From a virus, in IMG/VR virus record IMGVR_UViG_3300034683_000182, positions 1-35,103 of that record: DNA of 35,103 nt; one strand, 5' to 3'. Below are positions 810 to 32,011 of this stretch, one piece after another (the first letter of the stretch is position 1; each line of letters opens with the position of its first letter). Made by a program: the position numbers and the translations under genes. The notes under the pieces are model-generated. The model was not told the DNA's origin, searched no databases, and saw only the letters and a program-made list of their open reading frames with translations.

Positions 810-1817
810 CTAGTAAATTTCAGCATCGGCTACACCACTGAAAGTAAATCTTGTACCAATAGCTAGATTTGATAATGTGTATCCGAAAAATGAATTAACA
901 TTAGGAGCTCCCATAGTAATGTAACTACTTGGTGTTTGCATCGCTCCATCAATTTGTAACGAGGTTATAGTTTGCACTGGTTCTATCCTTTTTGTTGCCT
1001 TATAAGGAAAACAAAATTCATAAGCTGATAGAGTAGATGGGTTAATTGGTAGTCTTTCTGAATGGTAAAAAGTCTCATAATATCTCTGACAACTAGCCAA
1101 CTCTTCCGCATAGCTCTTAGGATGAAATGGTGTTGCAACAGAACCAAATTCAAGCTTTACATTTGAAATATCAATAGTTCTACCAGCTACATTATCTCTA
1201 AATAAATAAAGAGTTAAATAGTGCTCGGTACCAAACGTCTTGTTTTTTAAATCTGGAACTTGAATCGTTACTTCATACTTTTTAAAGTTTTCAGTTACAT
1301 CAAATTCTGAATAATGAAAAATTTCTTCTGTCCCCAATCCATAATTTCCAGCGAGTGCCAATCCAGTTCTAAAATTATTTCCTATGACCCTCGCCCAGAA
1401 AGAAAGAGTCAAAGTTTTGTTAGAAAACTGTTTAAGATTTTCTATATTTTGTGTCAAACTTCCCAAGAAATTACTATTTCTTGTAACCCTTATGATGCTA
1501 AGCTCGGGGCGAAGAGCAGAACTTTCTCTTATAATGGTATGTGAACATCCTGCAGTCCCTCTTATCATCCATCTATCAGCAGAATAAAAGTCTATAGTTT
1601 TGTTTACAAATTCTGTCCCTCTCTGCCAAATTTGAAAATCTCCATTGATAAGCAGATTTGGATTCGTTAATTGTGCCAATTGCGTAGCAGTCTGACCAGC
1701 ATTTTGGTCTATTTTATCCCAGTTTTCATTCATCATAGTTGTGATATTAAAGGTCTGGTCCTTATCTGCTATAGGGTCTTTTTTGTATAAATTTAAATTA
1801 GTTGTATTGCTAGCCAA
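810..1817 (-). CDS. Tail fibre / receptor-binding structural protein
   Basis: A 335-residue protein if translation begins at TTG 1817, which lies 8 bases after AGGAGG; an upstream in-frame TTG at 1838 precedes the ribosome site and is unlikely. The N-terminus (NLNLYKKDP..DKDQTFNI..MMNENWDKID) is the signature of Firmicutes tail-fibre N-termini that dock on the baseplate. The middle (LLINGDFQIWQRG..., residues 54-220) resembles a beta-sandwich carbohydrate-binding module, so the C-terminal two thirds likely recognise a host surface glycan. It overlaps the 3' end of the XkdU-like gene by 8 bases. Confidence 0.8.
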   Translation of the reverse strand: MASNTTNLNLYKKDPIADKDQTFNITTMMNENWDKIDQNAGQTATQLAQLTNPNLLINGDFQIWQRGTEFVNKTIDFYSADRWMIRGTAGCSHTIIRESSALRPELSIIRVTRNSNFLGSLTQNIENLKQFSNKTLTLSFWARVIGNNFRTGLALAGNYGLGTEEIFHYSEFDVTENFKKYEVTIQVPDLKNKTFGTEHYLTLYLFRDNVAGRTIDISNVKLEFGSVATPFHPKSYAEELASCQRYYETFYHSERLPINPSTLSAYEFCFPYKATKRIEPVQTITSLQIDGAMQTPSSYITMGAPNVNSFFGYTLSNLAIGTRFTFSGVADAEIY

Positions 1818-10039: not shown

Positions 10040-10155
10040 GAAATTACTTGATTTAACCAAAACAAAACAGTCTTATATTTTGACTTCTAAGCCTTTTTAA
10101 AATAATAGTAAGCTAATTACAAAACCCCTAAAATAAAAGTGTCTTAAAAACGATT

Positions 10156-30172: not shown

Positions 30173-30670
30173 TTATAACCCTATTGTATCTAATGCATAA
30201 GTAGCTTCTTCATCAGTAAATCCTTCAAATGTTAACTGATCATATAAACCACTTCTTGAAAAAGCAGACATATCTAAATACTCTTTTCCTTTTTTAACTG
30301 CTTGCTCTTTCCAGTCAACTTGTATATTTTCTACAGCATATGCACTATCTTCTTCACTAAATCCTTCAAAAACTAATTGTTTTATTAATCCTGACTTTGA
30401 AAAACCAGTTAAGTCTAAATATGATTCAGCTTTTCTTATTGCATTCTTTTTAGACATTGTTTGTTCTGGTTGAGCTGGTTCTTCTTGCTTTACTTCTTCT
30501 GCAGGTTCTTCAGTAGTTGCTGATTCTTCTTGAGTTGCAGAAACTTCTGGAGCTCCTTGAGTGTCTTCTTTGTCTCCCCCACCACCAAGTGCACCTATAA
30601 CTAAAACGGCAACAATTAAAATAAACCACCATCTTTTAAAAATAGGCTTCTTTTCTTTGCTTTTTTCCAT
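30173..30670 (-). CDS. Membrane-anchored Ltp-like superinfection-exclusion protein
   Basis: A 165-residue protein. A basic start (EKSKEKKPIFKRWW) leads into one membrane helix (FILIVAVLVIGALG, residues 16-29), a long acidic and Pro/Glu/Thr linker (residues 33-70), then two Ltp-type repeats: 'ESYLDLTGFSKSGLIKQLVFEGFSEEDS' cut as ESYLDLTGFSKSGL then KQLVFEGFSEED, and KEYLDMSAFSRSGL then DQLTFEGFTDEE. In Streptococcus phage TP-J34 the lipoprotein Ltp with such repeats blocks DNA entry of other phages. Here no lipobox cysteine is present; the membrane helix is the anchor. Adjacent to int, as lysogenic conversion genes are. Confidence 0.8.
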   Translation of the reverse strand: MEKSKEKKPIFKRWWFILIVAVLVIGALGGGGDKEDTQGAPEVSATQEESATTEEPAEEVKQEEPAQPEQTMSKKNAIRKAESYLDLTGFSKSGLIKQLVFEGFSEEDSAYAVENIQVDWKEQAVKKGKEYLDMSAFSRSGLYDQLTFEGFTDEEATYALDTIGL

Positions 30671-30730
30671 TTTAATTCCCCCTTTTTGTAAGTTAATATA
30701 AGTATACCTTATATTCTAAATAATTTGAAA

Positions 30731-30783
30731 ATAAAAATAACCCCTTCGTCAGGTCATGCCTGGCCATAATCGGCTGAAGGGGT
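30731..30783 (-). terminator. Branched (three-way junction) terminator
   Basis: An 8-bp outer stem (30740-30747 with 30776-30783) encloses two small hairpins: CAGG/CCTG (750-753 with 759-762 of 30 kb) and GCC/GGC (763-765 with 772-774). On the minus strand, GAAGGGGT is followed by TATTTTTATTTT. It ends the small-gene operon at 30805-31641. The branched shape is unusual for an intrinsic terminator and might be an independent small RNA. Confidence 0.65.
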
Positions 30784-30804
30784 ATTGTCTTTATAATTAT
30801 TATA

Positions 30805-31089
30805 TCACTTTTCATGCTTAATATCATCTAAATTAATTTCATATAATTCATTCTTTCTTGCTTTTATAAGTTCTTCTAATTCTTCAATATCTTCAATCTT
30901 AGCTTGCTTTTTTATAAAATTCCTTGCAGTACTTCTATTTCTTAAATATCTAGCATGTTCTCTATTTTTTTCTTGCCACTTTTTATTCGCTTCAGTTTGA
31001 GCCTTAGTTTCCATATTATCTCCTTCATCATCTGGATCATAGTCAGGTACCATTAAATTAAAATTGAACCAATCTAAGTTATTTTCCAT
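30805..31089 (-). CDS. Third gene of the pseudoknot-leader operon, unknown
   Basis: A 94-residue protein from ATG 31089 (GGGGGTAAG upstream; an in-frame ATG at 31104 overlaps that site). The N-terminal third is acidic (VPDYDPDDEGDN), then comes a basic helical part 'KWQEKNREHARYLRNRSTARNFIKKQAKIEDIEELEELIKARKNEL'-type segment (described in pieces: KWQEKNREHARYLRNRSTAR, then IEDIEELEELIKARKNE). Similar small proteins with 'RSTAR.FI' occur in Firmicutes phages and plasmids without known function. Confidence 0.7.
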   Translation of the reverse strand: MENNLDWFNFNLMVPDYDPDDEGDNMETKAQTEANKKWQEKNREHARYLRNRSTARNFIKKQAKIEDIEELEELIKARKNELYEINLDDIKHEK

Positions 31090-31110
31090 AATGCTTACCC
31101 CCATTTTATA

Positions 31111-31139
31111 TACGGTTTTGAAGGATTACCGTAAACCTT
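31111..31139 (-). promoter_or_regulatory. Pseudoknot leader B (before the third operon gene)
   Basis: On the minus-strand RNA the order is AAGG (31139-31136), UACGGU (31133-31128), CCUU (31124-31121), CAAA, ACCGUA (31116-31111). AAGG pairs with CCUU and UACGGU with ACCGUA in an interleaved order, an H-type pseudoknot. It starts 7 bases after the preceding stop and ends 22 bases before ATG 31089. Confidence 0.55.
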
Positions 31140-31145
31140 TTAAAA

Positions 31146-31346
31146 TTATTTTTCCCAGTTATTTTCTTCTTCCCACTCTTTTTCTAATTCTAGCATTTCT
31201 TCATAATTCACTTCTCTGCCAACAAATTCGCTAAAATTTTCTTGAACTGAAGGTTCTCCACAATCATATGCTTTTTGTCCTTCTTCTTCTATAAATCCAT
31301 TAGCTATTAATCTCCACTCGCTATACTTCTGTTTTAAGTTCATCAT
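31146..31346 (-). CDS. Second gene of the pseudoknot-leader operon, acidic
   Basis: A 66-residue, strongly acidic protein (18 Asp/Glu against 7 Lys/Arg by count), rich in helix (NLKQKYSEWRLIANGFIEEE, then EEMLELEKEWEEENNW). A 'YDCGEPSVQENF' turn contains its only cysteine. No family recognised. Small acidic phage proteins often inhibit host nucleases by DNA mimicry, but no specific evidence is visible. ATG 31346 follows GGAGGG. Confidence 0.65.
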   Translation of the reverse strand: MMNLKQKYSEWRLIANGFIEEEGQKAYDCGEPSVQENFSEFVGREVNYEEMLELEKEWEEENNWEK

Positions 31347-31370
31347 TTTAATCCCTCCATATTTTTATTT

Positions 31371-31398
31371 TGGCGGTTTTTAGGTTTACCGCCAACCT
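31371..31398 (-). promoter_or_regulatory. Pseudoknot leader A (before the second operon gene)
   Basis: Minus-strand RNA order: AGGU (31398-31395), UGGCGGU (31394-31388), A, AACCU (31386-31382), AAAA, ACCGCCA (31377-31371). AGGU pairs with ACCU and UGGCGGU with ACCGCCA, interleaved as an H-type pseudoknot with a 4-base A-rich third loop. Compared with leader B, the second stem changes on both sides (GGCGGU/ACCGCC against UACGGU/ACCGUA), so pairing is preserved. Confidence 0.6.
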
Positions 31399-31404
31399 TT
31401 TATT

Positions 31405-31641
31405 TTAGTATTCTAGTTCTACTGTTGTTATTTCAACTTCTTCTTGTTCTTCTATGTCCCAAACTTCTACTGGAGAGTTCCAATTTGCCGCATCTGATAA
31501 GTCTGGATTGGTGTCTAGATCAAAATCTTCGAAAACTTTAAATGTTACTGAATACTCTTTTCCACTTTCATCTTTTCCAAAATCTTTAACCATTCTGTCT
31601 TCGATTACTTGAGCTTGTCCATTCATTTTAATTTTTAGCAT
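31405..31641 (-). CDS. First gene of the pseudoknot-leader operon, acidic
   Basis: A 78-residue protein with 21 acidic against 7 basic residues by count. It reads as beta-rich (MLKIKMNGQAQVIEDRMVKD, then YSVTFKVFEDFDL), and the C-terminus is VEVWDIEEQEEVEITTVELEY-like with alternating acidic/hydrophobic residues. No family recognised. It is first behind the consensus promoter at 31696-31725, so it is probably strongly expressed when that promoter is free. Confidence 0.65.
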   Translation of the reverse strand: MLKIKMNGQAQVIEDRMVKDFGKDESGKEYSVTFKVFEDFDLDTNPDLSDAANWNSPVEVWDIEEQEEVEITTVELEY

Positions 31642-31670
31642 TTTTCATATCCCCTTTGGTTTTATTTAGG

Positions 31671-31685
31671 AGGTTTTGTTAACCT
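31671..31685 (-). promoter_or_regulatory. Leader C hairpin (before the first operon gene)
   Basis: AGGTT (complement of 31681-31685) pairs with AACCT (complement of 31671-31675) across a 5-base loop, the same first stem as leader A. The second pseudoknot stem is missing here. It lies near the predicted mRNA 5' end, so it may protect or expose the transcript. Confidence 0.45.
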
Positions 31686-31695
31686 TCTATAATTA

Positions 31696-31725
31696 TATTA
31701 TACTATCGATAGTATAATAAGTCAA
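31696..31725 (-). promoter_or_regulatory. Near-consensus promoter with a 24-bp palindromic operator
   Basis: On the minus strand, TTGACT (31720-31725), 17 bases, then TATAAT (31697-31702). A perfect palindrome of 24 bases at 31696-31719 (half TATTATACTATC) fills the whole spacer and -10. It differs from the CI/Cro operator, so another repressor, phage or host, should bind. Expression of the three-gene operon would be silent when occupied. Confidence 0.8.
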
Positions 31726-31754
31726 CACTATTTTAAAAATAAATTAATTTTTTC

Positions 31755-31788
31755 CAAAAAAAATAAACCCCTGCGTTTGCAAGGGTTT
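31755..31788 (-). terminator. Terminator of the lysis cassette
   Basis: Arms 31765-31774 and 31779-31788 form a 10-bp stem with one G-U pair and a 4-base loop; on the minus strand it is followed by ATTTTTTTT. It separates the lysis genes from the accessory operon and its own promoter. Confidence 0.85.
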
Positions 31789-31798
31789 GATAATACTA

Positions 31799-32011
31799 TT
31801 ATATATTTATATTGTTTTCTTCTCTTTTTCCATCGACATATCCTTCTGTAAGGATATATATAATCAGAGTAGCAAATGCTGAAACTATAGCTGTTATTTG
31901 AGCTATTTCAGCTTCTGTAAAATTAATAGCTACAAGAATGGCCGTTATAAAACCTATAAGAGCTGCCCAAAACTTCCTGCTAGATAACTTCCTTTTCCAG
32001 TCTATTTTCAT
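31799..32011 (-). CDS. Holin (phi LC3-like family)
   Basis: A 70-residue protein. 'MKIDWKRKLSSRKFWAALIGFITAILVAINFTE' gives one membrane helix (residues 14-28), 'AEIAQITAIVSAFATLIIYILTEGYVDG' a second, followed by a charged C-terminus (KREENN). This is the layout of small class II holins of Firmicutes phages. It overlaps the endolysin gene by 4 bases (ATGA) and follows GGAGGTG, so the two are produced together. Confidence 0.85.
   Translation of the reverse strand: MKIDWKRKLSSRKFWAALIGFITAILVAINFTEAEIAQITAIVSAFATLIIYILTEGYVDGKREENNINI

Follow-up and report, generated by a model that had tools for sequence, protein, structure and literature searches.

Two small RNA elements in the analyzed phage DNA, here called pseudoknots A and B, are true H-type pseudoknots and belong to a widespread phage RNA element for which we found neither an Rfam match nor a paper. 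Copies of this element share a conserved H-type fold whose shape is kept by matched mutations, and most of them stand a few nucleotides past the stop codon of the gene upstream. From the structure, the spread and the position of the copies we infer a function: tentatively, and with confidence just short of even, we read A and B as copies of a phage 3′-UTR pseudoknot that caps the upstream cistron.

Organization of the window and its small-gene operon

The window, i.e., the whole stretch of DNA analyzed, is a 35,103-base IMG/VR virus record with tailed-phage genes, most of them on the minus strand. The terminases nearest to its own are those of Geobacillus phages (about 40% identity). A small minus-strand operon, flanked by the lysis genes on one side and the recombinase region on the other, has the order promoter, g1, pseudoknot A, g2, pseudoknot B, g3, and intrinsic terminator. 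The sigma-70-type promoter (31697..31725, minus strand; TTGACT-N17-TATAAT) is overlapped by an operator-like palindrome of 20 bp, TTATACTATCGATAGTATAA (31698-31717), and both are identical in another virus record, L008. Gene g1 (31405..31641, minus strand) encodes an acidic protein of 78 aa and stops 6 nt upstream of A, while g2 (31146..31346, minus strand) encodes a protein of 66 aa and stops 6 nt upstream of B. Both proteins are of unknown function; no family was found for either, and PADLOC gave no defence-family match. The final gene, g3 (30805..31104, minus strand; likely start 31089), encodes a phrog_2277 protein and ends, without a pseudoknot, in an ordinary intrinsic terminator (30725..30783, minus strand; ACCCCUUC...GAAGGGGU followed by a U-rich tail; -20.6 kcal/mol, z -3.97). 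The phrog_2277 family also occurs in Listeria and Streptococcus phages.

The whole cassette (30732-31835) shares 96.5% identity with L008, and outside it a single other match to the 12.9-kb piece of L008 was found, one stretch with 88.8% identity. This high identity inside, with little similarity outside, makes the cassette moron-like, and its promoter, palindromic operator, three small genes, and terminator probably form a self-contained moron. The neighboring gene (30173-30670, minus strand) encodes an Ltp-type lipoprotein of the superinfection-exclusion family phrog_4980.

Pseudoknots A and B

Pseudoknot A (31371..31398, minus strand; AGGU.UGGCGGU.AA.ACCU.AAAA.ACCGCCA) lies 3′ of g1 and consists of stem 1, AGGU(U)/(A)ACCU, stem 2, UGGCGGU/ACCGCCA, and loop 3, AAAA. 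Pseudoknot B (31111..31139, minus strand; AAGG.UU.UACGGU.AAU.CCUU.CAAA.ACCGUA) lies 3′ of g2 and consists of stem 1, AAGG/CCUU, stem 2, UACGGU/ACCGUA, and loop 3, CAAA. Both were found where an earlier sequence-only reading of this DNA had located them, with a gap of 6 bases between the UAA stop and the element. The 3′ end of A is 24 nt from the start of g2, and that of B is about 21 nt from the likely start of g3 (31089) and 6 nt from its first ATG (31104). Neither knot overlaps the Shine-Dalgarno site of the next gene, and both are followed by A-rich RNA with no U tract, the terminator of the operon being separate. B has a second stop codon immediately present.

When folded without the knot, the minimum-energy structure is the stem-2 hairpin (A: -11.9 kcal/mol, z -3.0; B: -5.8 kcal/mol, z -1.0), and stem 1 arises when the loop of this hairpin pairs with the sequence preceding it. 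The interleaving of the two stems in A and B is beyond chance. In the window the core pattern is confined to A and B, barring their own 2-mismatch complements and background.

The sequence-only reading had counted three related elements, which stands for A and B. The third, ‘leader C’ (31671..31685, minus strand), is a simple 5-bp 5′ hairpin (AGGUU-AACAA-AACCU) by the expected transcript start. We rejected it as a member of the family because it has no second stem, folds no better than shuffled sequences (z -0.23), and marks the 5′ end of the operon transcript, not a position after a stop codon. Its sequence is unchanged in the close relative L008.

Search for related elements

Relatives were sought in a public virus collection by exact patterns combined with a pairing test, which we judged sharper than a covariance model for so short a motif; the resulting counts are lower bounds. 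The first strict pattern yielded 12 virus contigs and relaxed patterns yielded more. A relaxed pattern with loop 2 left unconstrained gave at least 119 stretches vs 30 for the backwards-read control, for which the scan was complete. The final set holds 106 distinct copies from 101 loci, mostly of uncultured phages, with a flanking GC content of 24-50%. Chance matches resembling terminators (L168/L235) and coding matches (L016, L018, L021, L024-L026, L031) were discarded.

A 14-base pattern was applied to the 27 whole records of the first matches and found one or two copies in 25 of them, against none for the backwards control. With usually one or two strict copies per phage, most genes thus do without the element. 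Phages of the L007/L010/L022/L027 type carry several copies per locus, each after one of several small genes.

No Rfam family matched the element; PreQ1 in particular had no match in the window region at E<=10 and none on 62 other copy-bearing loci at the gathering threshold. A BLAST search of 34-mers against 50,697 phage records returned weak partial matches only. We found no description of the element in the open-licence literature, although reports in subscription journals may exist. The earlier remark that no described family with this exact shape was known agrees with these searches of Rfam and the literature.

Consensus structure and covariation

The element is 27 nt in size and follows the consensus xGG-UU-(U/G)-NN-GGU-N-A-N-CC-x′-n(1-8)-AA-ACC-NN, in which the stems xGG/CCx and NNGGU/ACCNN interleave. 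In the 106-copy set, stem 1 has 3-5 bp and stem 2 has 4-7 bp. Apart from the GGU/ACC of stem 2, no position was fixed in every scan, and a dedicated search for stem-2 variants without GGU found none. A resemblance to the tRNA T-arm (GGUU..AANCC) was dropped once loop 2 proved to be NAN.

Both stems covary. Of 46 copies that lie outside ORFs, 45 have a Watson-Crick outer pair in stem 2, where 15.1 would be expected, and all four pair types occur (G-C 21, T-A 12, A-T 8, C-G 4, and one mismatch). This count is the cleaner test, since the search pattern behind it did not force that pair. In 73 aligned copies, whose selection itself demanded some pairing and from which the variable part of loop 3 was removed, 88.9% of cells pair and 57 cells are changed on both sides vs 16.6 in shuffles. 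The covariation score is 0.204 vs 0.063 in shuffles (reached in 0 of 500) and at most 0.077 when the partner is slid. The outer pair of stem 1 also covaries, with AU, GC, CG, and UA all seen. The interleaved, covarying stems proposed for A and B are thereby confirmed; homologues, on whose existence the sequence-only reading had staked its case, occur in other phages with their stems compensated.

Conservation also extends beyond pairing. The GG/CC, the loop-1 UU, the middle A of loop 2, and the A-rich loop 3 are all kept where the searches left these bases free, which would suit a binding site for a phage or host RNA-binding protein, an RNase, or a small ligand, i.e., a regulatory aptamer, possibly a relative of the class-I preQ1 scaffold with its UU after the 5′ strand of P1 and its A-rich loop 3. 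We consider such a binding site improbable. Where preQ1-I has its specificity C, just before the second strand of stem 1, the phage element shows any base (U, A, or G, and rarely C), the neighboring genes are unrelated with no queuosine gene noted, and the carrier phages look so diverse that a shared phage protein is unlikely.

Position relative to neighboring genes

Among 135 copies, 94 lie 5-16 nt past the stop of an ORF that has 40 codons or more, called by simple ORF rules, vs 3.3% of random positions in the same loci; many of the remaining copies are chance matches, lie at contig edges, or follow shorter ORFs. The distance from the stop to the GG has a median of 10 nt and the mode of the spacing is 7-10. 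In L066, L072, and L053 the copies are farther from a stop or closer to a start codon. The orientation of the copies follows the upstream gene, which together with the interleaved covariation disfavors a DNA operator or origin. The 103 upstream proteins fall into 78 clusters, are mostly unknown, and have a median length of 95 aa, nicotinamide phosphoribosyltransferase being the sole recurrent known family. The flanking proteins on both sides are unrelated to one another, and no queuosine family is among the 25 most-matched PHROGs shown for the downstream proteins. This placement at stop codons, combined with unrelated flanking proteins, ties the element to gene ends and not to a gene.

On the downstream side the surroundings vary. 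The start of the next gene is 9 to >200 nt from the knot, mostly 24-32 nt in tight operons. About 14 copies are directly followed by a TTGACT-type sigma-70 promoter of the next gene, whose -35 box may overlap the last base of the knot. In L023 and L259 a tRNA gene lies about 10 nt or less downstream of the copy, and in L217 (7844-7963, plus strand) a Twister-P5 ribozyme (RF02684) follows about 40 nt downstream, between two genes of an uncultured phage. In a 180-kb phage (L170:4082-4994, minus strand) a tRNA/tmRNA island contains a copy that has a tRNA gene on one side and a ROOL RNA on the other.

The sequence-only reading had taken A and B for leaders of the following genes, and the next ribosome-binding site does lie 10-30 nt on, both in the window and in many operon-like junctions. 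A role as a 5′ leader that regulates how the next gene is translated is nevertheless very unlikely, since the constant neighbor is the upstream stop, while the next start is so variable and sometimes has a promoter of its own, a tRNA gene, or a ribozyme in front of it, and since the Shine-Dalgarno site is free of the knot in A and B. The setting is also wider than the small genes of Firmicutes phages named in that reading, as the recurrent phosphoribosyltransferase illustrates.

In phages of the L007 type other genes close with ordinary terminator hairpins that alternate with copies of the element, and 23 of the 106 copies have at least six T within 8 nt after stem 2. A transcription terminator of unusual shape could account for such copies, and we regard it as the least probable reading because the U tract is absent in 83 of 106 copies and A and B, followed by A-rich RNA, stand inside an operon with its own terminator. 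In L007, L010, L022, and L027 (about 47-112 kb) almost all small genes have promoters of their own (TTGACTTTCTCTAAAAC-N-TATAAT-like), an unusual layout. L010 (near 10,117-10,150, plus strand) and L027 (near 1,090-1,127, plus strand) also contain a second type of pseudoknot with stem 1 reversed, e.g., GCCUUGGGGUGAGGAUAAAAAGCCCC, which likewise lies past the end of a gene and ahead of the following TTGACT promoter. Pseudoknots at gene ends may form a larger class.

A position just past the stop codon could also serve a ribosome-directed role, in which the knot, met at the mRNA entry side, would slow or stall ribosomes at the stop, cutting the output of the upstream gene or blocking sliding and reinitiation at the next one. 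Pseudoknots of the H type are well known as roadblocks to ribosomes. Where junctions are compact, the knot also stays clear of the footprint of a ribosome initiating on the next gene (most starts being 24-32 nt off), and the spacing of 5-16 nt nearly equals the range of at most 15 nt within which REPs are reported to lower translation (PMC12306157). We nonetheless hold this role to be rather unlikely, since plain stalling leaves the strict base identities in the loops unexplained and the sites before promoters, tRNA genes, and the ribozyme fit an mRNA end better. Stop-codon readthrough or frameshifting is rejected as a general role, because the extensions are short and B and several other copies have an immediate second stop.

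Distribution among phages and bacteria

The start-site contexts suggest that the carriers infect Firmicutes, Bacteroidetes, and other bacteria. Scanning 84,980 species genomes gave 17 loci. Seven of these are in Clostridia metagenome-assembled genomes, all uncultured, from five lineages (L117, L118, L120, L122, L123, L119, L112), with one copy per genome and the stem-2 variant UAGGU/ACCUA; some of the copies lie in chromosomal operons (pyrH|frr; Mur ligase|GatD-like). Capture from a phage and convergence are both possible origins of the Clostridia copies. The same scan gave two single matches, in Proteobacteria and in Psychroflexus, and its Pseudomonas matches, DnaA-box-like and in the oriC region, look like chance. 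In 391 Clostridia genomes we found one new match vs one for the backwards control, and in 395 Bacteroidota genomes one vs two. With matches at control level in these 786 further genomes, the element belongs essentially to viruses, perhaps with a small branch in Clostridia.

A putative 3′-UTR cap

In the reading that we favor, the RNA would fold, with no ligand, as a compact knot around a triple-stranded core, where adenines of loop 3 would occupy the minor groove of the GG/CC stem and touch the loop-1 UU. Such a core would resemble the quintuple base motif, which occurs in class-I preQ1 riboswitches, in the dENE fold for RNA stability, and in the Cas9 tracrRNA complex (PMC11625349). It is predicted because the conserved GG/CC, the UU, and the consecutive loop-3 adenines match the bases of this motif. 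The lower edge of the observed spacing, 5-7 nt, agrees with the edge of a terminating ribosome, and a knot beginning just beyond that edge would stay folded during translation of the gene. After downstream cleavage or run-on transcription, 3′-to-5′ exonucleases would halt at the knot, leaving the upstream coding region intact and the cistron stabilized. REP hairpins in 3′ UTRs act comparably, blocking exoribonucleases and stabilizing mRNA (PMC12306157). In the operon of the window every cistron would have its own 3′ structure, namely A, B, and the terminator.

Such a cap would explain the position, the orientation, and the gene independence of the element as well as the promoters, tRNAs, and ribozyme found nearby. 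The same data are compatible with ribosome stalling; we favor the cap since copies precede RNA-processing sites and alternate with terminators. Several points weigh against it. The stems are short for an exonuclease block (3-5 and 4-7 bp) unless the predicted triplex core is real, the spacing is tighter than would be required merely to stop an exonuclease and would fit an action on the ribosome as well, most phages have only one or two strict copies, and some copies are off the stop-codon spacing. Of the examples of a control element offered by the sequence-only reading, ‘stability element’ fits best, whereas control as the leader of a following small gene does not. It is possible, though we advance it with some reserve, that the copies represent an undescribed phage-specific class, a triple-helix pseudoknot of 27 nt that would serve as the standard 3′ cap for single cistrons, independent of gene family and host, in phages apparently of several bacterial phyla.

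A covarying fold in about 100 phage loci that yet has no Rfam match suggests a common, overlooked phage control of both the end and the lifetime of single messages. If true, the cap would be to individual genes what terminator hairpins are to operons. The element offers a compact, testable model for how a pseudoknot may block exonucleases or ribosomes, its sequence signature could be used to annotate phage gene ends, and it could become a stability part for laboratory constructs.

Comparison with known systems

The RNAs of type III toxin-antitoxin systems (ToxI-like) resemble the phage element in being H-type pseudoknots of about 30 nt, but ToxI occurs in tandem beside a toxin gene whereas the phage element is single-copy; no tandem array of it was found and PADLOC showed no defence-family match. 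The STAXI motif (RF01728) likewise comprises small pseudoknots near phage-type genes and differs from the phage element, which is solitary, anchored to stop codons, and without an Rfam match. STAXI pseudoknots are arranged in tandem with two to three repeats, near DNA-handling genes of phage or mobile-element type (PMC2864571).

With dENE and other triple helices the element would share a triple-stranded core, A-minor and U contacts, and protection of an RNA end, as predicted from its conserved bases only. However, dENE, a fold of eukaryotic RNAs, engages a poly(A) tail that is separate from it, while the A-rich strand of the phage mRNA is internal. Class-I preQ1 riboswitches are similar in size, H-type topology, the GG/CC atop stem 1, the loop-1 UU, and the A-rich loop 3 (PMC11625349). 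In contrast to these riboswitches, the phage element has no conserved specificity C before the 3′ strand of stem 1, its stem 2 of 4-7 bp is closed by an invariant GGU/ACC, it follows stop codons, and it is unlinked to queuosine genes among the families shown and has no PreQ1 match in Rfam.

REP elements of E. coli are intergenic and located 3′ of genes, a subset of them at most 15 nt from the stop. They are reported to block exonucleases, stabilize the upstream mRNA, or stall terminating ribosomes (PMC12306157). A structured RNA close past the stop codon is likewise what the phage element provides (94 of 135 copies). REPs are, however, hairpins formed by imperfect palindromes and present in hundreds of copies on a cellular chromosome, whereas the phage element is a 27-nt pseudoknot with interleaved stems and fixed loop bases, usually with one or two copies per phage and at chance level in 786 bacterial genomes. 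REPs are the closest measured precedent for the phage element, and both of the roles weighed here, an exonuclease block and stalling within 15 nt of the stop, have been reported for them.
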